DNA from: Tubulanus polymorphus
Taxonomy: Eukaryota; Nemertea; Palaeonemertea; Tubulaniformes; Tubulanidae
Reading direction: 5' to 3'
DNA length: 53,062 nt
NCBI RefSeq assembly: GCF_964204645.1
Contig: NW_027437480.1
Coordinates: 1-53,062 of the forward strand
The notes under the pieces are model-generated. The model saw nothing but the letters and a program-made list of their open reading frames with translations, ran no database searches and was not told where the DNA came from. Within the stretch, counting starts at the first letter, position 1. Every line of letters begins with the position of its first letter. Below, piece after piece: positions 15,520-46,393 of the stretch. A program made the translations under genes and the position numbers.

Positions 15520-15559
15520 GATGGGTCAATAGTTGAATGTTTTATCTGATGTTTCTCTC

Positions 15560-16077
15560 CATCCCGGAAGACACCCCCTGTAATAAACCATCAGCTCCCA
15601 TCCCGGAAGACACCCGTAGCTGTAGACACCTCCTGTAATAAACCATCAGCTAGATCCCGGAAGACACCCCCTGTAATAAACCATCAGCTCCCATCCCGGA
15701 AGACACCCGTAGCTGTAGACACCTCCTGTAATAAACCATCAGCTCCATCCCGGAAGACACCCGTAGCTGTAGACACCCCCAGTTATAAACCATCAGCTCC
15801 ATCCCGGAAGACACCCGTAGCTGTAGACACCCCCAGTTATAAACCATCAGCTCCATCCCGGAAGACACCCGTAGCTGTAGACACCCCCTGTAATAAACCA
15901 TCAGCTCCATCCCGGAAGACACCCGTAGCTGTAGACACCCCCAGTTATAAACCATCAGCTCCATCCCGGAAGACACCCGTAGCTGTAGACACCCCCAGTT
16001 ATAAACCATCAGCTCCATCCCGGAAGACACCCGTAGCTGTAGACACCCCCTGTAATAAACCATCAGCTCCATCCCCG
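15560..16077. repeat. 54-bp minisatellite between GDAP1 and FITM2
   Basis: About nine copies of a 54-bp unit contain CATCCCGGAAGACACCCGTA and AAACCATCAGCT, with a CCCAGTTA/CCCTGTAATA variant. Because 54 is a multiple of three it leaves a long open frame on the minus strand, which I do not regard as a gene. Confidence 0.92.
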
Positions 16078-16150
16078 GCCGATACACATCCAGTCCTTTG
16101 AACAACTGTAGACAATAGAAATTGAAAAGTGAATTCCATTGAACCTTATA

Positions 16151-21830: not shown

Positions 21831-22985
21831 TTGACAACCACTCGCAACTACAATATGCAATTTCTACTTTCCCTTCTAAGTAGATTTCGACGACTTGCAC
21901 CTGCAATGTGTAATTTCTACTTTCCCTTTTAAAAGATTTTGACAACTTGCACCTGCAATAATCAATTTCTACTTTCCCTTCTAAGTAGATTTCGACAATT
22001 TGCATCTGCAATATGTAATTTCTACAAAAAAATACTGTGAAAATATTCCGGTGATGTAAAATGTTTTCTCCTCTAAGTAGATTTCGACGACTTGCATCTG
22101 CAATGTGTAATTTCTACTTTCTCCTCTAAGTAGATTTTGATAATTTGCATCTGCAATGTGTAATTTTTACTTTCCCTTCTAAGTAGATTTCGACAACTTG
22201 CACCTGCAATAATCAATTTCTACTTTCCCATCTAAGTAGATTTCGACAATTTGCATCTGCAATGTGTAATTTTTACTTTCCCTTCTAAGTAGATTTCGAC
22301 AACTTGCACCTGCAATAAGCAATTTCTACTTTCCCTTCTAAGTAGATTTCGACAATTTGCACCTGCAATAAGCAATTTCTACTTTCCCATCTAAGTAGAT
22401 TTCGACAATTTGCACCTGCAATAAGCAATTTCTACTTTCCCTTCTAAGTAGATTTCGACAACTTGCAGCTGCAATAAGCAATTTCTACTTTCCCATCTAA
22501 GTAGATTTCGACAATTTGCACCTGCAATAAGCAATTTCTACTTTCCCTTCTAAGTAGATTTCGACAACTTGCAGCTGCAATAAGCAATTTCTACTTTCCC
22601 ATCTAAGTAGATTTCGACAATTTGCACCTGCAATAAGCAATTTCTACTTTCCCATCTAAGTAGATTTCGACAATTTGCACCTGCAATAAGCAATTTCTAC
22701 TTTCCCTTCTAAGTAGATTTCGACAACTTGCACCTGCAATATGTAATTTCTACAAAAAAATACTGTGAAAATATTCCGGTGATGTAAAATGTTTTCTCCT
22801 CTAAGTAGATTTCGACGACTTGCATCTGCAATGTGTAATTTCTACTTTCTCCTCTAAGTAGATTTTGATAATTTGCATCTGCAATGTGTAATTTTTACTT
22901 TCCCTTCTAAGTAGATTTCGACAACTTGCACCTGCAATAATCAATTTCTACTTTCCCTTCTAAGTAGATTTCGACAATTTGCAGG
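21825..22985. repeat. 53-bp hairpin satellite with higher-order repeat
   Basis: About 20 copies of a 53-bp unit contain TTTCTACTTTCCCTTCTAAG then TAGATTTCGACAATTTGCAC and CTGCAATAAG. TCTACTT and AAGTAGA are perfect reverse complements, so each unit can form a 7-bp stem. A ~200-bp variant block with ATACTGTGAAAATATTCCGG occurs at about 22013 and again at 22741, 728 bp apart, showing segmental duplication within the array. The satellite ends abruptly at the TTAGGG tract. Confidence 0.92.
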
Positions 22986-23002
22986 GTTAGGGTTAGGGTT
23001 AG
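22984..23002 (+). repeat. Short telomeric-type (TTAGGG)n tract
   Basis: GGGTTAGGGTTAGGGTTAGG lies exactly between the satellite and the 3' end of the first retroelement fragment. The G-rich strand is the plus strand. Confidence 0.9.
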
Positions 23003-23020
23003 GTTTAGAGATAGAGGTTA

Positions 23021-23049
23021 GGGGACCAAACCGAAGGTTTGGAGACCCC
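23021..23049 (-). promoter_or_regulatory. Conserved 3'-terminal hairpin of the PLE RNA (copy 0)
   Basis: CCAAACC and GGTTTGG form a 7-bp stem with a UUC loop in RNA sense, extended by GGGG against CCCC across an internal loop. The same hairpin ends every unit: 23252-23280, 29597-29625, 35939-35967, 42281-42309 and 48623-48651. It stands about 20 nt before the C-rich telomere-like 3' end, a good place for RT recognition. Confidence 0.7.
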
Positions 23050-23348: not shown

Positions 23349-25808
23349 CTACGGGACGTTCATGCCTCGGGGCGTGTTCGTGTCGAGTCGTCGTATCCAG
23401 TCTTGTTCGGCTGCTTCGCGGATCGGTCTCGTGGAGCCTGGTAGGTGTTGGAGACCGTACACCCGAAAGTGTTCGCGGGTGTGGTCGACTTGGTTGAAGT
23501 GGTCCGAGACTGGAGTCGAATTCTTCGTTCTGATGCGTGAGACGTGATGAGTGACGCGTTCTCGTAGAGACATTCCGGTTTGGCCGACGTACAGCATGTT
23601 GCACTTGGTGCATTCGATGCAGTATACAATTTCACGGGTCGCGCAATTAATTGTGCTGCGGATCGCGTGCATTTTGTTGTGGCTGCGGCAAACGGTTGTT
23701 TCTCGGACGAGTGGACACGTACGACATCTCGGTGTTCTGCATTTCTCGGTGCCTCGACGTCGGGTTGACGGAGTTCTTTGAGTAGACCTGGAAATAGAAG
23801 AATTGGAAACAACGGAAGTATTTCTGTTACGATGCGGTGAAGAGGGGACTCGGGGTGGGGGTGGCTCCGTGGGTTTGAGCTGCGACGAAGTTAGGAGATC
23901 TTTGAGACTCTTGTGCTTGGTGTAGGCGGTGACCGTGGTTACCTCGTCAGACCGGCCGGTGGCCGTAGCCAGTTCCGTAAATCTGGTTCGGATGTTACGG
24001 GCTAGGGTTCGGTTGGCTTCGGAGTGAGGTAAGATAAGCGGTAAACGCTTTTTCGGCGGTTCGTCGGCCCGTTGTTGTTCTCGTAGATCTCGTTCGGCGT
24101 GGTGCCGTAGAGCTTGGCTTTTGATGTGTCGCAGTTCGCGGTCTTTGTAGCCACGACCTCTGAGTACTTTAAGGACGGTTCCGGACGCTGCGTGTAAGTC
24201 CGAATCGTTATTGCAGATGCGCCGGAACCGGAGAATTTGACTTTTAACTATACCGGAAAATGTGTGTTTAGGGTGAAACGAGGATCGATGTAGTAATTGA
24301 TGCGAATCGGTTGGTTTGAAGTAGACTTTGGTGTCTACTGTGCCACTTGTCTCGAATCGCGGGCCTTTGAAAGTGGTTACGTCCAGGAAGTTGACGCTGG
24401 TGTCGCTGATTTCGAACTTGAGTTTGATGGATCGGCTCACTGTTTGTAGGACGTCGATGAATTGCATCAACGTTTCGCGGCCGTGTTCCCAAACTATGTA
24501 GATGTCGTCGATGAACCGAGCGTATAGCGATGGTTGGAGTTCGCTTCTGGACAGACCTTCTTTTTCCCATTCGGCTACAAAGATATTGGCATAAGAAGGA
24601 GCAAAACGCTTACCCATTGCGGTACCTTTTACCTGTAAATATGTGTTATCGTTAAAGTTAAAGTCATTTTTCTTCAGGCTGATTTCGAGTAGTTTCAGCA
24701 GCTCGGCATCCGGGCGTCCCGGGTTTGGGTTATCTCGGAGAGCTTGTCGGATGCTGGCGATACCCTCTTCGTGGGGGATGTTGGTGTAGAGCGAATCGAT
24801 GTCCATGGTGACGAGTAACGCATCGGCGCTAAATTGTTTACCGGCCAAAATATCTAGAAAGTGGTTGGTATCTTTGACGTACGACGGGTGACCGCGGGCG
24901 ATCGGCTGCAAATAGTAGTCGATCCATTCCGAAATTTCGTAGGTTTCGGAGCCGCAGTCGGAGACGATCGGTCTCCCCGGCGGTACGCGATCGGGTACCG
25001 TCCACTTCTCGCGTTCTTTATGGATTTTGGGAAGCAGATAGAACTGCCTCTGTTTCGGATTATCGGGCGGTAATAGATATTCGGCGGTTTTTAGCGGGAT
25101 GATTTTTCGTCGAGCCATATTTTCGATGATTTCGCGAATTTCTTCCCCGGTCTGTTCGAAGATCGGTTGCTGCAGCGGCTGATAATACTCGAGATCGGCT
25201 AGTTGGCGCATGGCTTCGTGGACGTAGTCGTCGCGGTCCATGATAACCGTAGCGGAACCCTTATCGGCGGCTTTGATGACAATATTAGTGTTGTCACGCA
25301 GCTGCTGGAGGGCTTCGCGTTCCTGTTTAGTGAGGTTATCATTTACGCGACGCGTATCCCTGGTTTGTTGAGCCAATTCGTGCGCGTCGTTGCAGAACCC
25401 GGCGATTACTGGTTCTATTTCATCCGGAGCCCAACTGCTGGGCAGACGGAAACGCGGAGCCTCGCGGTCCGGTTTGTCTCGGAAGTGATGGTCGAGTTTC
25501 ACTAGCCGGTTGAATCGGCACACTCCCTTGGTGCGCTCGGTCGCGGCGGCATCAGAACCGATTTTTGGAGTCGGGCAATAAGTGAGGCCCTTTCGGAGTA
25601 GCTGATGTTGCGCCGGACTTAGGCGGAGTGAACGTGTGAGGTTGACCACCGGGCTCCCGAGAGCGGTGACCGGATCGCGTCGCGCTTGGTTTGGTGCCGG
25701 TTCTTCGTGTTCGTCGGACCTGGAAATGGAAGAAATCAGAGAAGCATTGGTTAATTCCGGTTGATTTAACTCACCAATAGTGGACCCGTTGGTCTCACTA
25801 ATACTTAG
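23349..25808 (-). CDS. PLE ORF2: reverse transcriptase with GIY-YIG endonuclease (copy 1), entered by -1 frameshift
   Basis: This is the retroelement polymerase: it copies element RNA into DNA and, through its C-terminal endonuclease, can nick target DNA. The coordinates start at the codon after the slippery site; the frame is open back to about 25840. Counting residue 1 at 25649: the PLE-specific DKG motif at 129-131; YLLPKIHK at 204-211; GRPIVSDCGSETYE at 225-238; catalytic Asp in TMDIDSLYTNIP at 281-292; VKGTAMGKRFAPSYAN at 340-355; catalytic FIDD at 379-382; FLDVT at 421-425. A CX4CX2C motif lies at 637-645. The endonuclease has IVYCIECTKC with Y676, YVG at 687, Arg 696/698, a Glu near 745-748 and Asn 764. 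The first ATG is residue 137, beyond DKG, so independent initiation would delete conserved sequence. An ORF1-ORF2 fusion of about 1339 aa is expected. Confidence 0.93.
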   Translation of the reverse strand, partial: LSISETNGSTIGELNQPELTNASLISSISRSDEHEEPAPNQARRDPVTALGSPVVNLTRSLRLSPAQHQLLRKGLTYCPTPKIGSDAAATERTKGVCRFNRLVKLDHHFRDKPDREAPRFRLPSSWAPDEIEPVIAGFCNDAHELAQQTRDTRRVNDNLTKQEREALQQLRDNTNIVIKAADKGSATVIMDRDDYVHEAMRQLADLEYYQPLQQPIFEQTGEEIREIIENMARRKIIPLKTAEYLLPPDNPKQRQFYLLPKIHKEREKWTVPDRVPPGRPIVSDCGSETYEISEWIDYYLQPIARGHPSYVKDTNHFLDILAGKQFSADALLVTMDIDSLYTNIPHEEGIASIRQALRDNPNPGRPDAELLKLLEISLKKNDFNFNDNTYLQVKGTAMGKRFAPSYANIFVAEWEKEGLSRSELQPSLYARFIDDIYIVWEHGRETLMQFIDVLQTVSRSIKLKFEISDTSVNFLDVTTFKGPRFETSGTVDTKVYFKPTDSHQLLHRSSFHPKHTFSGIVKSQILRFRRICNNDSDLHAASGTVLKVLRGRGYKDRELRHIKSQALRHHAERDLREQQRADEPPKKRLPLILPHSEANRTLARNIRTRFTELATATGRSDEVTTVTAYTKHKSLKDLLTSSQLKPTEPPPPRVPSSPHRNRNTSVVSNSSISRSTQRTPSTRRRGTEKCRTPRCRTCPLVRETTVCRSHNKMHAIRSTINCATREIVYCIECTKCNMLYVGQTGMSLRERVTHHVSRIRTKNSTPVSDHFNQVDHTREHFRVYGLQHLPGSTRPIREAAEQDWIRRLDTNTPRGMNVP

Positions 25809-25814
25809 TTTAAA
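25778..25814 (-). promoter_or_regulatory. Putative -1 programmed ribosomal frameshift signal (copy 1)
   Basis: In the ORF1 frame the mRNA reads AGU GGU UUA AAC UAA, so U UUA AAC (25814-25808) is a perfect X XXY YYZ slippery heptamer directly before the ORF1 stop. After 7 nt (25807-25801), 25800-25778 can fold as UAGUG-A-GACC, loop AACG, GGUC-CACUA: nine base pairs with one bulged A. The -1 frame then reads UUU AAA CUA AGU and stays open into ORF2. The same heptamer, spacer and stem are present in all copies. Confidence 0.82.
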
Positions 25815-27367
25815 CCACTGAGCCAGTGGTCCAGCAGGGTGTTAGCTGTACCACGGTTCCAGTGGATCCCGTCTCCAACAACTCTGAAGCGTCGATCATC
25901 GATGGGTGGTATCGCGGTGACGTCGTCGTTATTCTCGAGGAATTCGTTGAACTTCCGGGCGAACTGCTGGTGTTCGCGGGTCGTGTTGAGTTGAACGAAG
26001 TGGACGAACGAGTGCTGATACTTCTTGACTGCGGCGTTGATCAGGCGCTGTGTGGTCTTCCTGGCGGTCGCTTCGAAGTTGTTGTCGCGGTTGTTGATTC
26101 CGACGCTGATGATCACCGTATCCGGGCGATCTCGGCGCTCCGGTACAGCATCGATCAGGTCGGCGAGATGAGCTATCTTGCAGCCGGGGAAGCTCTCGAT
26201 CTGGACGTCATCCGGACGGCGGCTTAATGTGATGTTACTCAGATTTGAGTCACCAATCACCAGAATGGGTCGCCGGGTTGGTGGCAGACTCCAATCCTGT
26301 TTCTTCCGACCCGTATTCGGATGACGGCGAACTTCCTGGGGCGCCATCGGTCTCGGTGTTGGCGTCGGACTTCGCGCTGGCAGTAGGCGCCCTGGTGACC
26401 TGTAATGAGACGGAGAGCTGGAAAGAGAAGAAGAGAGAGACGGCGTCGGACTGCTGGTTGGTGCGGTCGGCGTTCTCTGCGGCGGCGGCGGCGGCGTCGG
26501 GTTTCGAGGCGGCGGCGTCGGACTTCTCGGTGGCGTCGGACTTCTTGGTGGCGGCGGCGGCGTCGGCATCGGATTTCTCGGTGGTGGCGCCATTCTGGGT
26601 GGTGGCGTCCTGGTGACATCCGCGTAGCTTCTCGGTGACCTGGAATCAGAAAAAGAAGGAGGCGCTGTGGGCGCGGCGGGCGCGGCTGCGGTTGGTGCAG
26701 GCGTCCTCGGCGTCGCGGGCTTTCGAATCTTCCGGCTCGGTCTCGGCGGCGGACGAATCTTCGGCTCCGTGGGTGCCTCCTGGTGGTGTGACCTGAAATG
26801 AGAAGGGGAAGAAGGTGGGTTAGATAGGACATTTCTGAGTTTGTCAGACAGAGCCTGACCGCGGAATTTCGACCGCAAATCCAGCGCGATGTTGAAAAGC
26901 CGGATCGTTCCGGGGCTCAGACGGGAGCCGAAATTCCTCCGGGCCCATGTCAGGGCGACATCCTGTGCTGATAGACAGTCCGGCAGAGGATCACCCATTA
27001 GCTCAACAAATGTGGCAGCGTAATGGATGGTCAGCTCTTTCGAAACTGTCTCCATCCAGACGTCCGCGGCAGCGTGCAGCTGCACCGTTACTGCTTCGGT
27101 GCAAGCCGCCGGCCGCAGGAACATCTTCAGATGGTCCTTCTTCCTCCGAATCGCTTTCGGACCAGAGCTCAACTGGGCAAGGTGGTGCGCCACTTGAAGA
27201 GCTCTATAATAGGTTTTCGGCGACATCCCGGGTTGCTGGTGTCGCTCAGGGCGTCCTCCGCCCTTGCTGGTCTTCTCAGCTGGTGGTCGTTTCTTCTTTC
27301 GAGTAGATCGCTCCATTGACAGATATTTCGGCGAGGTTGCCTTCGTCAGTGTCAGTGCAGGAATCAT
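25805..27367 (-). CDS. PLE ORF1: basic, proline-rich protein with C-terminal GDSL/SGNH esterase domain (copy 1)
   Basis: This is a 520-aa protein of unproven function in the element cycle, from the ATG at 27367. Residues 20-30 are strongly basic (STRKKKRPP), a likely nuclear localisation or nucleic-acid-binding segment. Residues 50-182 look globular and helical but match nothing I recognise. Residues 183-350 are Pro/Ser/Arg-rich and low-complexity. Residues 365-520 form an SGNH hydrolase: block I VIGDSN with the nucleophile Ser at 374, a Gly block SFPGCK near 395, GINNRD with the Asn near 426, and block V DGIHWN with Asp 499 and His 502. Related esterase domains are known in ORF1 of CR1-like retrotransposons and as separate ORFs in rotifer terminons. 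It ends UUA AAC UAA, the frameshift site. Start caveat: a TATA-like box lies only about 25-31 bp upstream, so Met18 might be used. Confidence 0.9.
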   Translation of the reverse strand: MIPALTLTKATSPKYLSMERSTRKKKRPPAEKTSKGGGRPERHQQPGMSPKTYYRALQVAHHLAQLSSGPKAIRRKKDHLKMFLRPAACTEAVTVQLHAAADVWMETVSKELTIHYAATFVELMGDPLPDCLSAQDVALTWARRNFGSRLSPGTIRLFNIALDLRSKFRGQALSDKLRNVLSNPPSSPSHFRSHHQEAPTEPKIRPPPRPSRKIRKPATPRTPAPTAAAPAAPTAPPSFSDSRSPRSYADVTRTPPPRMAPPPRNPMPTPPPPPRSPTPPRSPTPPPRNPTPPPPPQRTPTAPTSSPTPSLSSSLSSSPSHYRSPGRLLPARSPTPTPRPMAPQEVRRHPNTGRKKQDWSLPPTRRPILVIGDSNLSNITLSRRPDDVQIESFPGCKIAHLADLIDAVPERRDRPDTVIISVGINNRDNNFEATARKTTQRLINAAVKKYQHSFVHFVQLNTTREHQQFARKFNEFLENNDDVTAIPPIDDRRFRVVGDGIHWNRGTANTLLDHWLSGLN

Positions 27368-29572
27368 GCTGAACTAGGATTAGACACGGGTTTTTATACA
27401 CGCAGCGCGCAACAAGTGAACAGTATTCGAGTTAGAAGTTAAGTGACCATATGAGACCTTGTGATCTAGACTAATTGTACTTCTGTGATCAAGCTAATAG
27501 ACAAACTAGGGGTCTGACTAATTATGCCTTTGATCCAGAGTGACTAGAAAACAGCACTAATTATAGCCCTTGATCTAGCTGTTGAATAGTTTGCTTTGAT
27601 GTATAGTTCTAAAGATCTAAAGAGCGGCGTGTCTAATATAGAATTGAAAAGTTTATTTCGATATAACCTAATAAATACTCAAAGTGTTTTCTATAAAGAG
27701 AAATCTAGAATATGTATTATTAATATACGTGAACCGGAATGTTCGAAATATGTCCGAGTTCAGTTTCAAAATTGCTTAATTCCTAATTAGTTTAGACGCG
27801 TTAATTAGCGGTGCGCGGCCGAGGCGTATTCCGATATACGCGTGTTTACTAGATAGTCGTAAATGGTGAAATCCGGTTCTTAGTTAATCGAGTTTTCTCC
27901 GTATTCTAAAGCTTTTAAGAGCGGATTTTGAAATATCTACGCGGTATTCTACCGAAAATTGGATGAATTAGACAGCGCGGCGTCGGCGATTTAGTAGGAA
28001 GTTATAACCCGTAAGATCTAAATTACTGAGTGAGCGCGGGTGGTTAATTAGCCCTAATTATGGGTGACGAGTTTTGATAGAAATGTCTTACTAATACGTC
28101 TGTTTTAATTCTACGTTCTTAAATATAATTCTATTAGATAAACTACGCTTATTTAGAGTTATTAGGATCGAGTAAAGCTATGTGAACTTAAACATGTCAC
28201 AAATATATTCAGACCGGAGCGCGGGTATTCAGTCAATCGGTTTAAGCTTGCGTAGTTTGAGTGGTTCAAAAACACTATGATCTCTTCTTTAATCCGAAGG
28301 TTGAAATATATACGTGATATAAAACTCTTTTTGAATCGGGAATATTGGGCTGTGTTCTTTGAAAAAAACTGATGAGTTTGAAGGCGTCGTAACTGCGATT
28401 TTGTATAGAATTGAGTCGGATAATTAGTCAAGAGGCGCAGGTGGCCGATCGGTCACTAATTATGAGTGACTTGTAAACAGTGATTGATGTCCGTGGACTA
28501 TTATTTATCCTATAAACTTCTTATACTTCTACAACCTATAGTGCGGTTTTTGAATATAGCTACTAATACTTTTGAGCGATCTCATTAGAATTGTTATCCG
28601 AAAATAAACTGTCTGTTTTAGAGAAATTTGAAACTTGACACCCGGATCTATATAGAGTATGTTCCAAGAGTTGGCGCGTAGATACGATAATAGTTAATTA
28701 GGACGTAGCGGGTTAGGTCCCCGACCGAACGTAATAGATTAAACGGAGGTTAATTAGGGTGCCGCGGGTTCGAGTCCCGACCAGGCGCCGTTTAGTAATT
28801 GAATAGTTCTATTCTAAATGTTTTTTACCTATTCTGGATTCCTTTTAATTCTGAATCTTTGACGGATACAATAGTACTTTTCAGATGTTTCTACGATATA
28901 ATCTTAGTGCCGACGCATATTTTCAAAATAAATAAGAGCGGTGGACTGGTTACCGGTATCTAACGCGGGGCACCGGCAACCCGTCAGTACTAGCGGTTAA
29001 TTTCGGAGCGGCGGGTACGGTTCCCGAGTATTCTCCGGAGCTTAATTCGGGTGCCGCGGGTTCGAGTCCCGATCAGGCGCGCCGTTTTAGTAATTGAGTA
29101 TATTCTTACCTATTCTAGATTCCCTTTCTTTCTAAATTTATAATAGATTAATTAATACTTTTCGGGTGTTTCTATGATATAATCTCAGTGCTGACGCATA
29201 TTTTCGAAATAGATAATAGCGGTGGACTGGTTACCGGTTTCTATCGTCCTGGGACAGGCAACCAGTCTGTACTAGCGGTTAGGGTTCGGTTCCCGATATC
29301 GCGCTTTTGTTTATTTTTCTAACTGTTTCTGATATTTGATCTGTCTTCTTACTTACTGAATTTCGATTGAGTTTTCAAAGTAAAGCAGAGAGAACTAATT
29401 AAAAGATAAAAGGTTAATGATTCCTGTGGAGCTTGTGATCTTGGAGTTTGTTTTGTACTCTGTCTCTGAGCGGGTTTCTGCTTCAGGCGACGGAGGATGA
29501 TTCTGCAAATAGATTGATGATTAATAATTAATCAGTTAAGATAATTTACGAGGGAAACCTGGCACGGGCTAA
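27368..29572 (-). other. PLE 5' region (copy 1): non-coding, with internal duplication and T-arm-like motifs
   Basis: About 2.2 kb separate ORF1 from the 3' end of the next unit. No long conserved ORF is seen. TGATCNAG followed by a CTAAT-like sequence occurs four times at 27462, 27486, 27531 and 27571. A ~230-bp block starting GCGGGTTCGAGTCCCGA at 28764 is directly repeated at 29056, and each copy ends in a GACTGGTTACCGGT hairpin (28944 and 29224). Five GGTTCGAGTCCC-like T-arm motifs lie between 28708 and 29296 on the plus strand. Function unknown; it could hold the promoter or act as a pLTR. Confidence 0.6.
27391..27398 (-). promoter_or_regulatory. TATA-like box upstream of PLE ORF1 (copy 1)
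   Basis: On the minus strand GTGTATAAAAACCCG gives TATAAAAA. It is repeated at 33733-33740, 40075-40082, 46417-46424 and 52759-52766. Transcription starting about 30 bp downstream would begin close to the first ATG. Confidence 0.5.
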
Positions 29573-29693: not shown

Positions 29694-32153
29694 CTACGGG
29701 ACGTTCATGCCTCGGGGCGTGTTCGTGTCGAGTCGTCGTATCCAGTCTTGTTCGGCTGCTTCGCGGATCGGTCTCGTGGAGCCTGGTAGGTGTTGGAGAC
29801 CGTACACCCGAAAGTGTTCGCGGGTGTGGTCGACTTGGTTGAAGTGGTCCGAGACTGGAGTCGAATTCTTCGTTCTGATGCGTGAGACGTGATGAGTGAC
29901 GCGTTCTCGTAGAGACATTCCGGTTTGGCCGACGTACAGCATGTTGCACTTGGTGCATTCGATGCAGTATACAATTTCACGGGTCGCGCAATTAATTGTG
30001 CTGCGGATCGCGTGCATTTTGTTGTGGCTGCGGCAAACGGTTGTTTCTCGGACGAGTGGACACGTACGACATCTCGGTGTTCTGCATTTCTCGGTGCCTC
30101 GACGTCGGGTTGACGGAGTTCTTTGAGTAGACCTGGAAATAGAAGAATTGGAAACAACGGAAGTATTTCTGTTACGATGCGGTGAAGAGGGGACTCGGGG
30201 AGGGGGTGGCTCCGTGGGTTTGAGCTGCGACGAAGTTAGGAGATCTTTGAGACTCTTGTGCTTGGTGTAGGCGGTGACCGTGGTTACCTCGTCCGACCGG
30301 CCGGTGGCCGTAGCCAGTTCCGTAAATCTGGTTCGGATGTTACGGGCTAGGGTTCGGTTGGCTTCGGAGTGAGGTAAGATAAGCGGTAAACGCTTTTTCG
30401 GCGGTTCGTCGGCCCGTTGTTGTTCTCGTAGATCTCGTTCGGCGTGGTGCCGTAGAGCTTGACTTTTGATGTGTCGCAGTTCGCGGTCTTTGTAGCCACG
30501 ACCTCTGAGTACTTTAAGGACGGTTCCGGACGCTGCGTGTAAGTCCGAATCGTTATTGCAGATGCGCCGGAACCGGAGAATTTGACTTTTAACTATACCG
30601 GAAAATGTGTGTTTAGGGTGAAACGAGGATCGATGTAGTAATTGATGCGAATCGGTTGGTTTGAAGTAGACTTTGGTGTCTACTGTGCCACTTGTCTCGA
30701 ATCGCGGGCCTTTGAAAGTGGTTACGTCCAGGAAGTTGACGCTGGTGTCGCTGATTTCGAACTTGAGTTTGATGGATCGGCTCACTGTTTGTAGGACGTC
30801 GATGAATTGCATCAACGTTTCGCGGCCGTGTTCCCAAACTATGTAGATGTCGTCGATGAACCGAGCGTATAGCGATGGTTGGAGTTCGCTTCTGGACAGA
30901 CCTTCTTTTTCCCATTCGGCTACAAAGATATTGGCATAAGAAGGAGCAAAACGCTTACCCATTGCGGTACCTTTTACCTGTAAATATGTGTTTTCGTTAA
31001 AGTTAAAGTCATTTTTCTTCAGGCTGATTTCGAGTAGTTTCAGCAGCTCGGCATCCGGGCGTCCCGGGTTCGGGTTATCTCGGAGAGCTTGTCGGATGCT
31101 GGCGATACCCTCTTCGTGGGGGATGTTGGTGTAGAGCGAATCGATGTCCATGGTGACGAGTAACGCATCGGCGCTAAATTGTTTACCGGCCAAAATATCT
31201 AGAAAGTGGTTGGTATCTTTGACGTACGACGGGTGACCGCGGGCGATCGGCTGCAAATAGTAGTCGATCCATTCCGAAATTTCGTAGGTTTCGGAGCCGC
31301 AGTCGGAGACGATCGGTCTCCCCGGCGGTACGCGATCGGGTACCGTCCACTTCTCGCGTTCTTTATGGATTTTGGGAAGCAGATAGAACTGCCTCTGTTT
31401 CGGATTATCGGGCGGTAATAGATATTCGGCGGTTTTTAGCGGGATGATTTTTCGTCGAGCCATATTTTCGATGATTTCGCGAATTTCTTCCCCGGTCTGT
31501 TCGAAGATCGGTTGCTGCAGCGGCTGATAATACTCGAGATCGGCTAGTTGGCGCATGGCTTCGAGGACGTAGTCGTCGCGGTCCATGATAACCGTAGCGG
31601 AACCCTTATCGGCGGCTTTGATGACAATATTAGTGTTGTCACGCAGCTGCTGGAGGGCTTCGCGTTCCTGTTTAGTGAGGTTATCATTTACGCGACGCGT
31701 ATCCCTGGTTTGTTGAGCCAATTCGTGCGCGTCGTTGCAGAACCCGGCGATTACTGGTTCTATTTCATCCGGAGCCCAACTGCTGGGCAGACGGAAACGC
31801 GGAGCCTCGCGGTCCGGTTTGTCTCGGAAGTGATGGTCGAGTTTCACTAGCCGGTTGAATCGGCACACTCCCTTGGTGCGCTCGGTCGCGGCGGCATCAG
31901 AACCGATTTTTGGAGTCGGGCAATAAGTGAGGCCCTTTCGGAGTAGCTGATGTTGCGCCGGACTTAGGCGGAGTGAACGTGTGAGGTTGACCACCGGGCT
32001 CCCGAGAGCGGTGACCGGATCGCGTCGCGCTTGGTTTGGTGCCGGTTCTTCGTGTTCGTCGGACCTGGAAACGGAAGAAATCAGAGAAGCATTGGTTAAT
32101 TCCGGTTGATTTAACTCACCAATAGTGGACCCGTTGGTCTCACTAATACTTAG
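29694..32153 (-). CDS. PLE ORF2: RT plus GIY-YIG endonuclease (copy 2)
   Basis: It has the same domains and intact catalytic residues as copy 1, entered by the -1 shift at UUUAAAC (32153-32159) with the stem-loop at 32123-32145. It differs from copy 1 at residue 144 (L for H, in DDYVLEAM) and residue 334 (E for D, in NFNENTY). No ATG precedes the DKG motif. Confidence 0.92.
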   Translation of the reverse strand, partial: LSISETNGSTIGELNQPELTNASLISSVSRSDEHEEPAPNQARRDPVTALGSPVVNLTRSLRLSPAQHQLLRKGLTYCPTPKIGSDAAATERTKGVCRFNRLVKLDHHFRDKPDREAPRFRLPSSWAPDEIEPVIAGFCNDAHELAQQTRDTRRVNDNLTKQEREALQQLRDNTNIVIKAADKGSATVIMDRDDYVLEAMRQLADLEYYQPLQQPIFEQTGEEIREIIENMARRKIIPLKTAEYLLPPDNPKQRQFYLLPKIHKEREKWTVPDRVPPGRPIVSDCGSETYEISEWIDYYLQPIARGHPSYVKDTNHFLDILAGKQFSADALLVTMDIDSLYTNIPHEEGIASIRQALRDNPNPGRPDAELLKLLEISLKKNDFNFNENTYLQVKGTAMGKRFAPSYANIFVAEWEKEGLSRSELQPSLYARFIDDIYIVWEHGRETLMQFIDVLQTVSRSIKLKFEISDTSVNFLDVTTFKGPRFETSGTVDTKVYFKPTDSHQLLHRSSFHPKHTFSGIVKSQILRFRRICNNDSDLHAASGTVLKVLRGRGYKDRELRHIKSQALRHHAERDLREQQRADEPPKKRLPLILPHSEANRTLARNIRTRFTELATATGRSDEVTTVTAYTKHKSLKDLLTSSQLKPTEPPPPRVPSSPHRNRNTSVVSNSSISRSTQRTPSTRRRGTEKCRTPRCRTCPLVRETTVCRSHNKMHAIRSTINCATREIVYCIECTKCNMLYVGQTGMSLRERVTHHVSRIRTKNSTPVSDHFNQVDHTREHFRVYGLQHLPGSTRPIREAAEQDWIRRLDTNTPRGMNVP

Positions 32154-33709
32154 TTTAAACCACTGAGCCAGTGGTCCAGCAGGGTGTTAGCTGTACCACG
32201 GTTCCAGTGGATCCCGTCTCCAACAACTCTGAAGCGTCGATCATCGATGGGTGGTATCGCGGTGACGTCGTCGTTATTCTCGAGGAATTCGTTGAACTTC
32301 CGGGCGAACTGCTGGTGTTCGCGGGTCGTGTTGAGTTGAACGAAGTGGACGAACGAGTGCTGATACTTCTTGACTGCGGCGTTGATCAGGCGCTGTGTGG
32401 TCTTCCTGGCGGTCGCTTCGAAGTTGTTGTCGCGGTTGTTGATTCCGACGCTGATGATCACCGTATCCGGGCGATCTCGGCGCTCCGGTACAGCATCGAT
32501 CAGGTCGGCGAGATGAGCTATCTTGCAGCCGGGGAAGCTCTCGATCTGGACGTCATCCGGACGGCGGCTTGATGTGATGTTACTCAGATTTGAGTCACCA
32601 ATCACCAGAATGGGTCGCCGGGTTGGTGGCAGACTCCAATCCTGTTTCTTCCGACCCGTATTCGGATGACGGCGAACTTCCTGGGGCGCCATCGGTCTCG
32701 GTGTTGGCGTCGGACTTCGCGCTGGCAGTAGGCGCCCTGGTGACCTGTAATGAGACGGAGAGCTGGAAAGAGAAGAAGAGAGAGACGGCGTCGGACTGCT
32801 GGTTGGTGCGGTCGGCGTTCTCTGCGGCGGCGGCGGCGTCGGGTTTCGAGGCGGCGGCGTCGGACTTCTCGGTGGCGTCGGACTTCTTGGTGGCGGCGGC
32901 GGCGTCGGCATCGGACTTCTCGGTGGTGGCGCCATTCTGGTTGGTGGCGTCCTGGTGACATCCGCGTAGCTTCTCGGTGACCTGGAATCAGAAAAAGAAG
33001 GAGGCGCTGTGGGCGCGGCGGGCGCGGCTGCGGTTGGTGCAGGCGTCCTCGGCGTCGCGGGCTTTCGAATCTTCCGGCTCGGTCTCGGCGGCGGACGAAT
33101 CTTCGGCTCCGTGGGTGCCTCCTGGTGGTGTGACCTGAAATGAGAAGGGGAAGAAGGTGGGTTAGATAGGACATTTCTGAGTTTGTCAGACAGAGCCTGA
33201 CCGCGGAATTTCGACCGCAAATCCAGCGCGATGTTGAAAAGCCGGATCGTTCCGGGGCTCAGACGGGAGCCGAAATTCCTCCGGGCCCATGTCAGGGCGA
33301 CATCCTGTGCTGATAGACAGTCCGGCAGAGGATCACCCATTAGCTCAACAAATGTGGCAGCGTAATGGATGGTCAGCTCTTTCGAAACTGTCTCCATCCA
33401 GACGTCCGCGGCAGCGTGCAGCTGCACCGTTACTGCTTCGGTGCAAGCCGCCGGCCGCAGGAACATCTTCAGATGGTCCTTCTTCCTCCGAATCGCTTTC
33501 GGACCAGAGCTCAACTGGGCAAGGTGGTGCGCCACTTGAAGAGCTCTATAATAGGTTTTCGGCGACATCCCGGGTTGCTGGTGTCGCTCAGGGCGTCCTC
33601 CGCCCTTGCTGGTCTTCTCAGCTGGTGGTCGTTTCTTCTTTCGAGTAGATCGCTCCATTGACAGATATTTCGGCGAGGTTGCCTTCGTCAGTGTCAGTGC
33701 AGGAATCAT
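32150..33709 (-). CDS. PLE ORF1: GDSL/SGNH esterase protein (copy 2)
   Basis: 519 aa, one residue shorter than copy 1 through loss of one codon in the proline-rich stretch (GCGGCGGCGG run). The SGNH blocks GDSN, GINNRD and DGIHWN are intact. It carries NITSSRRP where copy 1 has NITLSRRP. Confidence 0.9.
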   Translation of the reverse strand: MIPALTLTKATSPKYLSMERSTRKKKRPPAEKTSKGGGRPERHQQPGMSPKTYYRALQVAHHLAQLSSGPKAIRRKKDHLKMFLRPAACTEAVTVQLHAAADVWMETVSKELTIHYAATFVELMGDPLPDCLSAQDVALTWARRNFGSRLSPGTIRLFNIALDLRSKFRGQALSDKLRNVLSNPPSSPSHFRSHHQEAPTEPKIRPPPRPSRKIRKPATPRTPAPTAAAPAAPTAPPSFSDSRSPRSYADVTRTPPTRMAPPPRSPMPTPPPPPRSPTPPRSPTPPPRNPTPPPPQRTPTAPTSSPTPSLSSSLSSSPSHYRSPGRLLPARSPTPTPRPMAPQEVRRHPNTGRKKQDWSLPPTRRPILVIGDSNLSNITSSRRPDDVQIESFPGCKIAHLADLIDAVPERRDRPDTVIISVGINNRDNNFEATARKTTQRLINAAVKKYQHSFVHFVQLNTTREHQQFARKFNEFLENNDDVTAIPPIDDRRFRVVGDGIHWNRGTANTLLDHWLSGLN

Positions 33710-36035: not shown

Positions 36036-38495
36036 CTACGGGACGTTCATGCCTCGGGGCGTGTTCGTGTCGAGTCGTCGTATCCAGTCTTGTTCGGCTG
36101 CTTCGCGGATCGGTCTCGTGGAGCCTGGTAGGTGTTGGAGACCGTACACCCGAAAGTGTTCGCGGGTGTGGTCGACTTGGTTGAAGTGGTCCGAGACTGG
36201 AGTCGAATTCTTCGTTCTGATGCGTGAGACGTGATGAGTGACGCGTTCTCGTAGAGACATTCCGGTTTGGCCGACGTACAGCATGTTGCACTTGGTGCAT
36301 TCGATGCAGTATACAATTTCACGGGTCGCGCAATTAATTGTGCTGCGGATCGCGTGCATTTTGTTGTGGCTGCGGCAAACGGTTGTTTCTCGGACGAGTG
36401 GACACGTACGACATCTCGGTGTTCTGCATTTCTCGGTGCCTCGACGTCGGGTTGACGGAGTTCTTTGAGTAGACCTGGAAATAGAAGAATTGGAAACAAC
36501 GGAAGTATTTCTGTTACGATGCGGTGAAGAGGGGACTCGGGGAGGGGGTGGCTCCGTGGGTTTGAGCTGCGACGAAGTTAGGAGATCTTTGAGACTCTTG
36601 TGCTTGGTGTAGGCGGTGACCGTGGTTACCTCGTCCGACCGGCCGGTGGCCGTAGCCAGTTCCGTAAATCTGGTTCGGATGTTACGGGCTAGGGTTCGGT
36701 TGGCTTCGGAGTGAGGTAAGATAAGCGGTAAACGCTTTTTCGGCGGTTCGTCGGCCCGTTGTTGTTCTCGTAGATCTCGTTCGGCGTGGTGCCGTAGAGC
36801 TTGACTTTTGATGTGTCGCAGTTCGCGGTCTTTGTAGCCACGACCTCTGAGTACTTTAAGGACGGTTCCGGACGCTGCGTGTAAGTCCGAATCGTTATTG
36901 CAGATGCGCCGGAACCGGAGAATTTGACTTTTAACTATACCGGAAAATGTGTGTTTAGGGTGAAACGAGGATCGATGTAGTAATTGATGCGAATCGGTTG
37001 GTTTGAAGTAGACTTTGGTGTCTACTGTGCCACTTGTCTCGAATCGCGGGCCTTTGAAAGTGGTTACGTCCAGGAAGTTGACGCTGGTGTCGCTGATTTC
37101 GAACTTGAGTTTGATGGATCGGCTCACTGTTTGTAGGACGTCGATGAATTGCATCAACGTTTCGCGGCCGTGTTCCCAAACTATGTAGATGTCGTCGATG
37201 AACCGAGCGTATAGCGATGGTTGGAGTTCGCTTCTGGACAGACCTTCTTTTTCCCATTCGGCTACAAAGATATTGGCATAAGAAGGAGCAAAACGCTTAC
37301 CCATTGCGGTACCTTTTACCTGTAAATATGTGTTTTCGTTAAAGTTAAAGTCATTTTTCTTCAGGCTGATTTCGAGTAGTTTCAGCAGCTCGGCATCCGG
37401 GCGTCCCGGGTTCGGGTTATCTCGGAGAGCTTGTCGGATGCTGGCGATACCCTCTTCGTGGGGGATGTTGGTGTAGAGCGAATCGATGTCCATGGTGACG
37501 AGTAACGCATCGGCGCTAAATTGTTTACCGGCCAAAATATCTAGAAAGTGGTTGGTATCTTTGACGTACGACGGGTGACCGCGGGCGATCGGCTGCAAAT
37601 AGTAGTCGATCCATTCCGAAATTTCGTAGGTTTCGGAGCCGCAGTCGGAGACGATCGGTCTCCCCGGCGGTACGCGATCGGGTACCGTCCACTTCTCGCG
37701 TTCTTTATGGATTTTGGGAAGCAGATAGAACTGCCTCTGTTTCGGATTATCGGGCGGTAATAGATATTCGGCGGTTTTTAGCGGGATGATTTTTCGTCGA
37801 GCCATATTTTCGATGATTTCGCGAATTTCTTCCCCGGTCTGTTCGAAGATCGGTTGCTGCAGCGGCTGATAATACTCGAGATCGGCTAGTTGGCGCATGG
37901 CTTCGAGGACGTAGTCGTCGCGGTCCATGATAACCGTAGCGGAACCCTTATCGGCGGCTTTGATGACAATATTAGTGTTGTCACGCAGCTGCTGGAGGGC
38001 TTCGCGTTCCTGTTTAGTGAGGTTATCATTTACGCGACGCGTATCCCTGGTTTGTTGAGCCAATTCGTGCGCGTCGTTGCAGAACCCGGCGATTACTGGT
38101 TCTATTTCATCCGGAGCCCAACTGCTGGGCAGACGGAAACGCGGAGCCTCGCGGTCCGGTTTGTCTCGGAAGTGATGGTCGAGTTTCACTAGCCGGTTGA
38201 ATCGGCACACTCCCTTGGTGCGCTCGGTCGCGGCGGCATCAGAACCGATTTTTGGAGTCGGGCAATAAGTGAGGCCCTTTCGGAGTAGCTGATGTTGCGC
38301 CGGACTTAGGCGGAGTGAACGTGTGAGGTTGACCACCGGGCTCCCGAGAGCGGTGACCGGATCGCGTCGCGCTTGGTTTGGTGCCGGTTCTTCGTGTTCG
38401 TCGGACCTGGAAACGGAAGAAATCAGAGAAGCATTGGTTAATTCCGGTTGATTTAACTCACCAATAGTGGACCCGTTGGTCTCACTAATACTTAG
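36036..38495 (-). CDS. PLE ORF2: RT plus GIY-YIG endonuclease (copy 3)
   Basis: The protein is identical to copy 2, with all RT and endonuclease signatures intact. The slippery heptamer is at 38495-38501 and the stem-loop at 38465-38487. Confidence 0.92.
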   Translation of the reverse strand, partial: LSISETNGSTIGELNQPELTNASLISSVSRSDEHEEPAPNQARRDPVTALGSPVVNLTRSLRLSPAQHQLLRKGLTYCPTPKIGSDAAATERTKGVCRFNRLVKLDHHFRDKPDREAPRFRLPSSWAPDEIEPVIAGFCNDAHELAQQTRDTRRVNDNLTKQEREALQQLRDNTNIVIKAADKGSATVIMDRDDYVLEAMRQLADLEYYQPLQQPIFEQTGEEIREIIENMARRKIIPLKTAEYLLPPDNPKQRQFYLLPKIHKEREKWTVPDRVPPGRPIVSDCGSETYEISEWIDYYLQPIARGHPSYVKDTNHFLDILAGKQFSADALLVTMDIDSLYTNIPHEEGIASIRQALRDNPNPGRPDAELLKLLEISLKKNDFNFNENTYLQVKGTAMGKRFAPSYANIFVAEWEKEGLSRSELQPSLYARFIDDIYIVWEHGRETLMQFIDVLQTVSRSIKLKFEISDTSVNFLDVTTFKGPRFETSGTVDTKVYFKPTDSHQLLHRSSFHPKHTFSGIVKSQILRFRRICNNDSDLHAASGTVLKVLRGRGYKDRELRHIKSQALRHHAERDLREQQRADEPPKKRLPLILPHSEANRTLARNIRTRFTELATATGRSDEVTTVTAYTKHKSLKDLLTSSQLKPTEPPPPRVPSSPHRNRNTSVVSNSSISRSTQRTPSTRRRGTEKCRTPRCRTCPLVRETTVCRSHNKMHAIRSTINCATREIVYCIECTKCNMLYVGQTGMSLRERVTHHVSRIRTKNSTPVSDHFNQVDHTREHFRVYGLQHLPGSTRPIREAAEQDWIRRLDTNTPRGMNVP

Positions 38496-40051
38496 TTTAA
38501 ACCACTGAGCCAGTGGTCCAGCAGGGTGTTAGCTGTACCACGGTTCCAGTGGATCCCGTCTCCAACAACTCTGAAGCGTCGATCATCGATGGGTGGTATC
38601 GCGGTGACGTCGTCGTTATTCTCGAGGAATTCGTTGAACTTCCGGGCGAACTGCTGGTGTTCGCGGGTCGTGTTGAGTTGAACGAAGTGGACGAACGAGT
38701 GCTGATACTTCTTGACTGCGGCGTTGATCAGGCGCTGTGTGGTCTTCCTGGCGGTCGCTTCGAAGTTGTTGTCGCGGTTGTTGATTCCGACGCTGATGAT
38801 CACCGTATCCGGGCGATCTCGGCGCTCCGGTACAGCATCGATCAGGTCGGCGAGATGAGCTATCTTGCAGCCGGGGAAGCTCTCGATCTGGACGTCATCC
38901 GGACGGCGGCTTGATGTGATGTTACTCAGATTTGAGTCACCAATCACCAGAATGGGTCGCCGGGTTGGTGGCAGACTCCAATCCTGTTTCTTCCGACCCG
39001 TATTCGGATGACGGCGAACTTCCTGGGGCGCCATCGGTCTCGGTGTTGGCGTCGGACTTCGCGCTGGCAGTAGGCGCCCTGGTGACCTGTAATGAGACGG
39101 AGAGCTGGAAAGAGAAGAAGAGAGAGACGGCGTCGGACTGCTGGTTGGTGCGGTCGGCGTTCTCTGCGGCGGCGGCGGCGTCGGGTTTCGAGGCGGCGGC
39201 GTCGGACTTCTCGGTGGCGTCGGACTTCTTGGTGGCGGCGGCGGCGTCGGCATCGGACTTCTCGGTGGTGGCGCCATTCTGGTTGGTGGCGTCCTGGTGA
39301 CATCCGCGTAGCTTCTCGGTGACCTGGAATCAGAAAAAGAAGGAGGCGCTGTGGGCGCGGCGGGCGCGGCTGCGGTTGGTGCAGGCGTCCTCGGCGTCGC
39401 GGGCTTTCGAATCTTCCGGCTCGGTCTCGGCGGCGGACGAATCTTCGGCTCCGTGGGTGCCTCCTGGTGGTGTGACCTGAAATGAGAAGGGGAAGAAGGT
39501 GGGTTAGATAGGACATTTCTGAGTTTGTCAGACAGAGCCTGACCGCGGAATTTCGACCGCAAATCCAGCGCGATGTTGAAAAGCCGGATCGTTCCGGGGC
39601 TCAGACGGGAGCCGAAATTCCTCCGGGCCCATGTCAGGGCGACATCCTGTGCTGATAGACAGTCCGGCAGAGGATCACCCATTAGCTCAACAAATGTGGC
39701 AGCGTAATGGATGGTCAGCTCTTTCGAAACTGTCTCCATCCAGACGTCCGCGGCAGCGTGCAGCTGCACCGTTACTGCTTCGGTGCAAGCCGCCGGCCGC
39801 AGGAACATCTTCAGATGGTCCTTCTTCCTCCGAATCGCTTTCGGACCAGAGCTCAACTGGGCAAGGTGGTGCGCCACTTGAAGAGCTCTATAATAGGTTT
39901 TCGGCGACATCCCGGGTTGCTGGTGTCGCTCAGGGCGTCCTCCGCCCTTGCTGGTCTTCTCAGCTGGTGGTCGTTTCTTCTTTCGAGTAGATCGCTCCAT
40001 TGACAGATATTTCGGCGAGGTTGCCTTCGTCAGTGTCAGTGCAGGAATCAT
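38492..40051 (-). CDS. PLE ORF1: GDSL/SGNH esterase protein (copy 3)
   Basis: 519 aa, identical to copy 2, with intact Ser-Asp-His signature blocks and the UUA AAC UAA end. Confidence 0.9.
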   Translation of the reverse strand: MIPALTLTKATSPKYLSMERSTRKKKRPPAEKTSKGGGRPERHQQPGMSPKTYYRALQVAHHLAQLSSGPKAIRRKKDHLKMFLRPAACTEAVTVQLHAAADVWMETVSKELTIHYAATFVELMGDPLPDCLSAQDVALTWARRNFGSRLSPGTIRLFNIALDLRSKFRGQALSDKLRNVLSNPPSSPSHFRSHHQEAPTEPKIRPPPRPSRKIRKPATPRTPAPTAAAPAAPTAPPSFSDSRSPRSYADVTRTPPTRMAPPPRSPMPTPPPPPRSPTPPRSPTPPPRNPTPPPPQRTPTAPTSSPTPSLSSSLSSSPSHYRSPGRLLPARSPTPTPRPMAPQEVRRHPNTGRKKQDWSLPPTRRPILVIGDSNLSNITSSRRPDDVQIESFPGCKIAHLADLIDAVPERRDRPDTVIISVGINNRDNNFEATARKTTQRLINAAVKKYQHSFVHFVQLNTTREHQQFARKFNEFLENNDDVTAIPPIDDRRFRVVGDGIHWNRGTANTLLDHWLSGLN

Positions 40052-44837: not shown

Positions 44838-46393
44838 TTTAAACCACTGAGCCAGTGGTCCAGCAGGGTGTTAGCTGTACCACGGTTCCAGTGGATCCCG
44901 TCTCCAACAACTCTGAAGCGTCGATCATCGATGGGTGGTATCGCGGTGACGTCGTCGTTATTCTCGAGGAATTCGTTGAACTTCCGGGCGAACTGCTGGT
45001 GTTCGCGGGTCGTGTTGAGTTGAACGAAGTGGACGAACGAGTGCTGATACTTCTTGACTGCGGCGTTGATCAGGCGCTGTGTGGTCTTCCTGGCGGTCGC
45101 TTCGAAGTTGTTGTCGCGGTTGTTGATTCCGACGCTGATGATCACCGTATCCGGGCGATCTCGGCGCTCCGGTACAGCATCGATCAGGTCGGCGAGATGA
45201 GCTATCTTGCAGCCGGGGAAGCTCTCGATCTGGACGTCATCCGGACGGCGGCTTGATGTGATGTTACTCAGATTTGAGTCACCAATCACCAGAATGGGTC
45301 GCCGGGTTGGTGGCAGACTCCAATCCTGTTTCTTCCGACCCGTATTCGGATGACGGCGAACTTCCTGGGGCGCCATCGGTCTCGGTGTTGGCGTCGGACT
45401 TCGCGCTGGCAGTAGGCGCCCTGGTGACCTGTAATGAGACGGAGAGCTGGAAAGAGAAGAAGAGAGAGACGGCGTCGGACTGCTGGTTGGTGCGGTCGGC
45501 GTTCTCTGCGGCGGCGGCGGCGTCGGGTTTCGAGGCGGCGGCGTCGGACTTCTCGGTGGCGTCGGACTTCTTGGTGGCGGCGGCGGCGTCGGCATCGGAC
45601 TTCTCGGTGGTGGCGCCATTCTGGTTGGTGGCGTCCTGGTGACATCCGCGTAGCTTCTCGGTGACCTGGAATCAGAAAAAGAAGGAGGCGCTGTGGGCGC
45701 GGCGGGCGCGGCTGCGGTTGGTGCAGGCGTCCTCGGCGTCGCGGGCTTTCGAATCTTCCGGCTCGGTCTCGGCGGCGGACGAATCTTCGGCTCCGTGGGT
45801 GCCTCCTGGTGGTGTGACCTGAAATGAGAAGGGGAAGAAGGTGGGTTAGATAGGACATTTCTGAGTTTGTCAGACAGAGCCTGACCGCGGAATTTCGACC
45901 GCAAATCCAGCGCGATGTTGAAAAGCCGGATCGTTCCGGGGCTCAGACGGGAGCCGAAATTCCTCCGGGCCCATGTCAGGGCGACATCCTGTGCTGATAG
46001 ACAGTCCGGCAGAGGATCACCCATTAGCTCAACAAATGTGGCAGCGTAATGGATGGTCAGCTCTTTCGAAACTGTCTCCATCCAGACGTCCGCGGCAGCG
46101 TGCAGCTGCACCGTTACTGCTTCGGTGCAAGCCGCCGGCCGCAGGAACATCTTCAGATGGTCCTTCTTCCTCCGAATCGCTTTCGGACCAGAGCTCAACT
46201 GGGCAAGGTGGTGCGCCACTTGAAGAGCTCTATAATAGGTTTTCGGCGACATCCCGGGTTGCTGGTGTCGCTCAGGGCGTCCTCCGCCCTTGCTGGTCTT
46301 CTCAGCTGGTGGTCGTTTCTTCTTTCGAGTAGATCGCTCCATTGACAGATATTTCGGCGAGGTTGCCTTCGTCAGTGTCAGTGCAGGAATCAT
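44834..46393 (-). CDS. PLE ORF1: GDSL/SGNH esterase protein (copy 4)
   Basis: 519 aa, identical to copies 2 and 3, esterase signature intact. Confidence 0.9.
   Translation of the reverse strand: MIPALTLTKATSPKYLSMERSTRKKKRPPAEKTSKGGGRPERHQQPGMSPKTYYRALQVAHHLAQLSSGPKAIRRKKDHLKMFLRPAACTEAVTVQLHAAADVWMETVSKELTIHYAATFVELMGDPLPDCLSAQDVALTWARRNFGSRLSPGTIRLFNIALDLRSKFRGQALSDKLRNVLSNPPSSPSHFRSHHQEAPTEPKIRPPPRPSRKIRKPATPRTPAPTAAAPAAPTAPPSFSDSRSPRSYADVTRTPPTRMAPPPRSPMPTPPPPPRSPTPPRSPTPPPRNPTPPPPQRTPTAPTSSPTPSLSSSLSSSPSHYRSPGRLLPARSPTPTPRPMAPQEVRRHPNTGRKKQDWSLPPTRRPILVIGDSNLSNITSSRRPDDVQIESFPGCKIAHLADLIDAVPERRDRPDTVIISVGINNRDNNFEATARKTTQRLINAAVKKYQHSFVHFVQLNTTREHQQFARKFNEFLENNDDVTAIPPIDDRRFRVVGDGIHWNRGTANTLLDHWLSGLN

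Follow-up and report, generated by a model that had tools for sequence, protein, structure and literature searches.

The stretch of DNA analysed here (the window) is the entire 53,062-base contig C63 of the 267.8-Mb assembly of Tubulanus polymorphus, a palaeonemertean ribbon worm. From about 23 to 53 kb the window carries, on the minus strand, five tandem units of a Penelope-like element (PLE) spaced 6,342-6,345 bases apart, and the question considered is how the two open reading frames (ORFs) of this element are joined in expression. In copy 1, ORF1 (25808..27373, 522 amino acids (aa) from stop to stop) consists of a conserved N-terminal region, a Pro/Ser-rich middle and a C-terminal SGNH/GDSL-type esterase ending in HWLSGLN. 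ORF2 (23349..25841, an open frame of 830 aa plus stop) encodes a Penelope-type reverse transcriptase (RT) with a C-terminal GIY-YIG domain and lies in the -1 frame relative to ORF1. The same pair of frames was found at 32150-33715 (ORF1) and 29694-32186 (ORF2) in copy 2, at 38492-40057 and 36036-38528 in copy 3, at 44834-46399 and 42378-44870 in copy 4, and at 51176-52741 and 48720-51212 in copy 5. Among the matches listed, the named protein closest to ORF2 was P0001 of T. polymorphus (97% identity over 71%).

PLEs are mobile relatives of telomerase, and how they produce their proteins is poorly known. A Pfam search of ORF2 detected RVT_1 (E 2e-7) and GIY-YIG (E 4e-4, 1.5 bits under the cut-off), and both domains were present in many ORF2 homologues. 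A DKG motif, which upstream of the RT core is a Penelope-like feature, was located at residue 193, and the sequence KCRTPRCRTC was judged by eye to fit the Cys motif (CX2-5CXXC) that precedes GIY-YIG in the Neptune clade; a CX4CX2C motif before the endonuclease is likewise shared with Neptune-like elements. No solved structure related to ORF2 by sequence was found. ORF1 alone matched Pfam Lipase_GDSL_2 below the cut-off (E 0.05), and a profile built from seven ORF1s matched the solved ORF1-encoded protein 4c1b_A (E 7e-6), which we take to be the zebrafish L2-type esterase (PMC3905857). The element is an endonuclease-containing Penelope-like retrotransposon, probably of Neptune type. The element gave no Rfam match to a hammerhead ribozyme, although diverged motifs could escape such a search.

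On the minus strand of copy 1, ORF1 ends CAC TGG CTC AGT GGT TTA AAC TAA. The slippery heptamer U UUA AAC (25814-25808) stands in the ORF1 frame and abuts the stop codon TAA (25805..25807), and a spacer of 7 nucleotides (nt; 25801..25807) separates it from a hairpin at 25800-25778 (TAGTG(A)GACC, loop AACG, GGTCCACTA; nine pairs and one bulged A). ORF2, which overlaps ORF1 in the -1 frame, has its open frame starting at 25841. Each of these elements had been claimed in the original prediction, which placed heptamer, spacer and one-bulge stem-loop directly around the ORF1 stop and had ORF2 open back into ORF1, and each was found as described. Its further claim that ORF2 has no ATG until residue 137, beyond the DKG motif, held for the order but not for the number, the first Met being residue 201 of the open frame. 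The heptamer was also present in the other four copies (32153..32159, 38495..38501, 44837..44843 and 51179..51185, all minus strand), and the first 60 nt from the heptamer onward were identical in all five; the claim that all three parts are kept in five of five copies is therefore correct, but it carries little weight because the copies are nearly identical. Within ORF1 of this family (family A), a canonical in-frame heptamer occurred at only one of 521 tested codon positions, namely the junction. A frameshift there would yield a protein of about 1340 aa, made up of 520 ORF1 residues, counted from its first Met up to the Asn, and 819 residues of ORF2.

Across the assembly, 54 family A ORF2 copies (a lower bound) were scored from 928 candidates and classed on the intactness of ORF2, and 48 of them were full-length and stop-free. 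The results showed that UUUAAAC lies exactly 27-33 nt into the ORF2 frame in 46 of these 48. The other two, both on contig C10, have UUUAAAU, a change that is silent in both frames (AAC to AAT in ORF1, CTA to TTA in ORF2) and leaves a canonical heptamer. Among dead copies in the same genome the heptamer had drifted to TTTAAAG (L043), TTAAAAC (L044) and TCTAAAC (L048).

The weight of the evidence comes from divergent families that share the arrangement. When ORF1 and ORF2 were used as queries against their own genome, the matches, judged by coordinates and identity, comprised family A, a second family (B), fragments and a few ORF1-only pieces. Beyond A, three families with an esterase-type ORF1 and an ORF2 were available for a test at the DNA level, namely B, L052 and L053. 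Family B, which lies on contig C4 in the same array as A, is about 34-36% identical to A in ORF1 and about 49-54% in ORF2. Its ORF1 ends GTA AAA AAC GAA TAG and so contains the other canonical heptamer, A AAA AAC, one codon further on; its ORF2 is in the -1 frame, with the first Met at residue 208, after DKG at 200. L052 comprises two tandem Penelope units on a contig catalogued as Epulopiscium, a bacterium that inhabits the guts of surgeonfish; we infer that this contig, of fish-gut source, stems from the host animal. The L052 ORF1 ends HWI SY LN FKAP stop (TAT TTA AAC TTC AAA GCC CCT TAA), with T TTA AAC in frame, and its ORF2, again in the -1 frame, has its first Met at residue 392. In A, B and L052 alike the heptamer follows the conserved HW(L/I/M) of ORF1 by two to three codons. 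The arrangement seen in the window is found again in B and L052, divergent families of which one uses a different canonical heptamer. No ORF2 match, and hence no junction, was found in L041, L042, L045, L046 or L051; L054 and L055, which are too distant, gave no match to the ORF1 profile; and scans of viral contigs found no DNA of relatives.

Canonical in-frame heptamers were nearly absent from ORF1 outside the overlap (0 of 510 codons in A, 1 of 632 in B, 0 of 588 in L052 and 1 of 347 in L053), while the overlap itself held one each in A (11 codons), B (23) and L052 (27). These counts bear on the idea that ORF1 and ORF2 are a single frame broken by chance or decay, with a meaningless heptamer. 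A single frame is possible in such elements, as shown by P0092, a natural single-frame esterase-RT-GIY-YIG protein of 951 aa. However, the arrangement is shared by the 48 intact ORF2 copies and two further families, and with heptamers so rare elsewhere in ORF1 we regard this explanation as barely credible.

Traces of the junction were also sought in proteins. ORF2 homologues numbered 2,698 with E <= 1e-10 among 7,990 scored candidates, and the analysis was carried out on the best 120, of which 38 extend 32 residues or more beyond the GLxFxP anchor in the upstream direction (the zone, drawn after the motif FKL had been noticed). FKL is the -1 reading of UUUAAACU (UUU AAA CUN). The result showed that FKL occurs in 19 of the 38 zone-reaching homologues, or 12 of 25 clusters at 60% identity, and that its frequency is 19 in 639 zone residues versus 6 in 28,045 residues elsewhere in the same proteins. 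Most of the 19 homologues without FKL begin too late to show it. FF was found in the zone of 4 of the 25 clusters. At the family A offset, a 0-frame TGG (the W of HW) is possible in six of the nine FKL proteins with at least six residues upstream, compared with 4% of 6,410 control pairs; P0108 was wrongly included among the nine, because its FKL sits elsewhere, and the six include three close relatives (P0085, P0098 and P0112). A stop directly after the heptamer is possible in 17 of 21 FKL proteins, versus 68% after other leucines, a comparison that does not discriminate.

FKL might instead be a conserved N-terminal peptide of the RT, with UUUAAAC a by-product of its codons. It is the commonest tripeptide of the zone, and both DNA families that have it (A and L052) spell it TTT AAA CTN. 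Against this, the corresponding stretch of family B reads AAA AAA (KK) and some clusters have FF, residues that share slipperiness with FKL and not chemistry; moreover, FKL lies in the overlap, where the 0-frame proteins keep a terminal LN. Selection on the peptide is accordingly a most improbable source of the motif.

On the ORF1 side, nine homologues were found, of which P0129 (397 aa, from a contig of 1,824) was left out, as it stops short of the esterase. Five of the remaining eight (P0121 and P0125-P0128) end in HW(L/M)xxLN (HWLLNLN, HWLLHLN, HWLLHLN, HWMAHLN and HWMQHLN); judged by sequence, they appear to form two sets of close relatives. At the position preceding LN (N, H, H, H and H, with G in A and Y in L052), the residue is always one with a U-ending codon. 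P0124 reads HWLSTAKKTPGFFV, which is compatible with A AAA AAN. A PF08719 (ribA/ribD-fused, NADAR) domain is additionally carried by P0121-P0123 and P0125-P0129.

The distribution of the motif was examined on a tree of 44 rows (the 38 zone-reaching homologues plus A, B, L052, L053, P0002 and P0092), drawn with midpoint rooting. FKL or UUUAAAC was present in both deep clades. B is sister to A plus P0002, L053 pairs with P0094, in which the motif is absent, and the position of P0092 is unresolved within the half that holds A. Losses of the motif could not be counted because many homologues begin at a later Met. From these patterns the putative frameshift site is probably old in the group and was probably replaced several times.

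Taken together, these data make it highly probable that the RT-endonuclease is made by extending ORF1 through a -1 frameshift at U UUA AAC, giving an esterase-RT-GIY-YIG fusion. This is the interpretation put forward in the original prediction, and the recurrence of a heptamer in B and L052 and the protein traces lend it support. Ribosomes would translate the esterase ORF1, and most would terminate at UAA. In a minority, the tRNAs in the P and A sites, paired with UUA and AAC respectively, would slip back one base and re-pair on UUU AAA, and these ribosomes would read ...LSGLN-LSISETN... on into ORF2. Slippage, its ratio, a role of the hairpin and the fused protein are what we infer from the arrangement. 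ORF1 might serve to bring RT and RNA into one particle or membrane site, although this is a guess. More broadly, the comparison supports a -1 frameshift conserved across divergent relatives, with L053 and P0122/P0123 as exceptions.

Several observations weigh against this interpretation. DNA with the frameshift signal is limited to three families (A, B and L052). L053 keeps the -1 offset of its ORFs, but its overlap (16 codons) has no heptamer and an ATG overlaps its ORF1 stop (ATGTTAG), so that the expectation of heptamer, offset and ATG-less ORF2 in relatives was borne out in B and L052 and, apart from the offset, failed in L053. Among proteins, P0003, P0012 and P0094 reach the zone with neither FKL nor FF, P0084 reads PPPKL, and the ends of P0122 and P0123 (LPNF and LPHF) are not clearly slippery; the eight ORF1 homologue ends were assumed to be stops, codons and the type of end not being given for database proteins. 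In the T. polymorphus genome, ten further exact matches to the UUUAAAC pattern adjoin no full-length ORF2, including the dead copies L049 and L047, and because the heptamer persists at these ten places its constancy in family A is partly mere descent. (L047 holds a second family with A AAA AAA followed, as judged by eye, by a deletion and a stop just after; it was excluded from the counts.) In addition, the hairpin is disrupted by a T-to-C change in the two UUUAAAU copies, although both have an intact ORF2.

The stability of the hairpins adds to these reservations. Hairpins begin 5-7 nt downstream of the heptamer in A, B and L052. Spans of 50 and 80 nt were folded with RNAfold, whose output consists of simple hairpins only, and compared with 300 dinucleotide shuffles and with 200 random positions in the same element. 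The 50-nt span of family A had a z of -2.4, in the lowest 1.3% of shuffles, and the corresponding spans of B and L052 fell in the lowest 1.3% and 8.7%. At 80 nt none stood out, the values being 12% (A, z -1.2), 12% (B) and 25% (L052). Random positions were equally stable in 12.5% (A), 23% (B) and 0.5% (L052) of cases, so that only L052 stood out. As the shuffle and random-position tests disagree, no conserved stimulator is established, though hairpins exist.

Splicing could also join ORF1 to ORF2, if an intron removed the stop and fused the frames. PLEs are known to keep introns, according to a title cited in PMC6431247, and splice-site scoring with a matrix not fitted to T. polymorphus picked out an intron-like stretch of 55 nt within ORF2 (25720..25774, minus strand; TTG/GTGAGT ... 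TTTCCAG/G). Its donor-like GTGAGT (score 8.4) lies at +33 and its acceptor-like TTTCCAG/G (score 12.6) at +88 nt from the stop. The best fusing pairs totalled 15.8 in A, 14.5 in B (donor 9.0 at -531, acceptor 5.5) and 12.1 in L052 (6.3 with 5.7), A reaching its total because of the strong acceptor. However, this best complete intron lies entirely after the ORF1 stop and its length is not a multiple of three, and its removal would make ORF2 continuous with a frame that is closed a short way upstream by TAG TGA; as a fusing device the 55-nt stretch was therefore rejected on frame grounds. Donors in ORF1 of A that would fuse the frames score at most 3.3, versus 8.4 for the good donor, and the fusing pairs sit at different places among the families. 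A junction search of the assembly allowing up to two mismatches found no genomic copy without the 55 nt, and splicing does not explain the heptamers, FKL or the LN ends. Fusion by splicing is thus very unlikely. It is possible, judging from the frames, that splicing of the 55-nt stretch would uncouple the RT and act as a switch. A comparable stretch is retained in the dead relative L043, where a count by eye gave 58 nt.

Another explanation is that ORF2 is made separately, by stop-start reinitiation, an internal entry site or a non-AUG start. The ATG of L053 has the form expected of reinitiation, which this one relative may use, and many listed homologues start with Met near the conserved NLS motif, although starts of this kind are what gene callers select. 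In A, B and L052 the open ORF2 frame has its first Met late, in each case past DKG. The absence of Met alone is only suggestive (P 0.04, 0.18 and 0.015 for A, B and L052), and a stretch free of Met counts against AUG starts but not against other start codons. Nevertheless, a separate start does not predict a heptamer, and we give it little chance as the general route to the RT.

If fusion by frameshifting is true, the RT would come attached to ORF1 in a fixed proportion, as happens in retroviruses, and an ORF1-rich particle or ribonucleoprotein with few RT molecules would be predicted. It would also explain, in a way open to testing, why the RT frame begins with such a long stretch free of Met. 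For annotators, RT frames that begin near FKL may represent the downstream half of a recoded gene.

The 3′ end of the element is nearly constant up to AACCTAA. In the window, the innermost partial copy (22980..23042, minus strand) ends with CCAAACC-TTCG-GGTTTGG, the near-constant tail and about three CCCTAA repeats, followed by a 53-bp satellite. Eight of 19 listed 3′ ends, one of which (L040) is cut short, run into at least two CCCTAA repeats, with at least nine in L006 and L039; variable CCCTAA was seen at the 3′ ends in the window, L006, L039, L002, L003, L005, L007 and L008, and also in L058 (1-1500). The first 1.3 kb or so of contig C10 is CCCTAA, followed by a short inverted ORF2 piece and then an element 3′ end. 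On C4, C8, C10, C34, C54 and C63 the arrays are close to a contig end and point their 5′ end outward. The array on C30 is oriented the opposite way, about 56 kb separate the C7 copy from an end of its contig, and other copies are interior (C1, C2, C3, C5 and C6). No telomere repeat was found at the examined end of C4 or C7, and the first 1.5 kb of C8 reads N. By its sequence, the element is possibly a telomere-attaching PLE that retains GIY-YIG.

Two further features of the window were recorded. Perfect matches to an RNA polymerase III B-box-like sequence, GGTTCGAGTCC, occur on the plus strand at 28767 and 29059 and at the equivalent sites in the next three units, that is, two per unit and antisense to the element; they account for 8 of the 10 matches in the window, against 0.09 expected. 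No tRNA gene was called. Outside the arrays, open frames at 6056-7279 and 15550-16101 (plus strand) are built of 27-nt and 54-nt tandem repeats (STRVPPQTE..., RKTPVAVDT...).

A wider scenario, to which we give an even chance, is that a whole branch of animal PLEs is expressed in retroviral fashion, with an esterase ORF1 (HWxxxLN-stop) whose ancestral -1 site makes an ORF1-RT-endonuclease fusion, and that in later lineages another heptamer came in (A AAA AAC, perhaps U UUU UUN), the frames became fused or a start-stop overlap took over, with the coupling of ORF1 and RT kept. In T. polymorphus the element would add itself to telomeres, and splicing of the intron-like stretch may switch the fusion off.

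The original prediction supposed that this strategy is undescribed for PLEs. The open-licence literature agrees, in that no report of frameshifting between ORFs of a PLE was found (including PMC5718144, PMC10294476 and PMC2678813), a search judged mostly by title and abstract start that is no proof of novelty; in the passages seen of PMC3846280 and PMC4465651, the frameshifts mentioned are mutations. The telomeric non-LTR element HeT-A (long terminal repeat, LTR) is likewise telomeric and has a gag gene that needs a frameshift, according to the examined part of PMC5009743, from which the word Penelope is absent; it is unrelated to the Tubulanus element and encodes no RT of its own. Penelope and Poseidon, as described in passages of PMC3846280 and PMC11167929, likewise combine RT and GIY-YIG and form tandem copies, but have a single ORF. 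The Athena elements and Terminons of bdelloid rotifers (PMC6431247, in part) likewise form head-to-tail arrays at chromosome ends, with 3′ reverse-complement telomeric repeats and GDSL esterase ORFs; Terminons are endonuclease-deficient and have a hammerhead motif, whereas the Tubulanus element has GIY-YIG and no Rfam hammerhead match. Neptune-like Penelope elements of fish and molluscs likewise have RT and GIY-YIG with an associated esterase, and the passages of PMC5408684 that describe them are silent on how ORF1 and RT are joined, using 'frameshift' once, for gag-pol of an LTR element. The joint proposed here resembles that of gag-pol in retroviruses and LTR retrotransposons and of ORF1a/1b in coronaviruses, where an X XXY YYZ heptamer in the 0 frame, a short spacer and a hairpin likewise precede a polymerase fused to the first ORF. 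UUUAAAC is the coronavirus heptamer. In the Tubulanus case the host of this arrangement differs, being a Penelope-like element with a telomerase-like RT and GIY-YIG, in which the upstream ORF1 is an esterase and not Gag.

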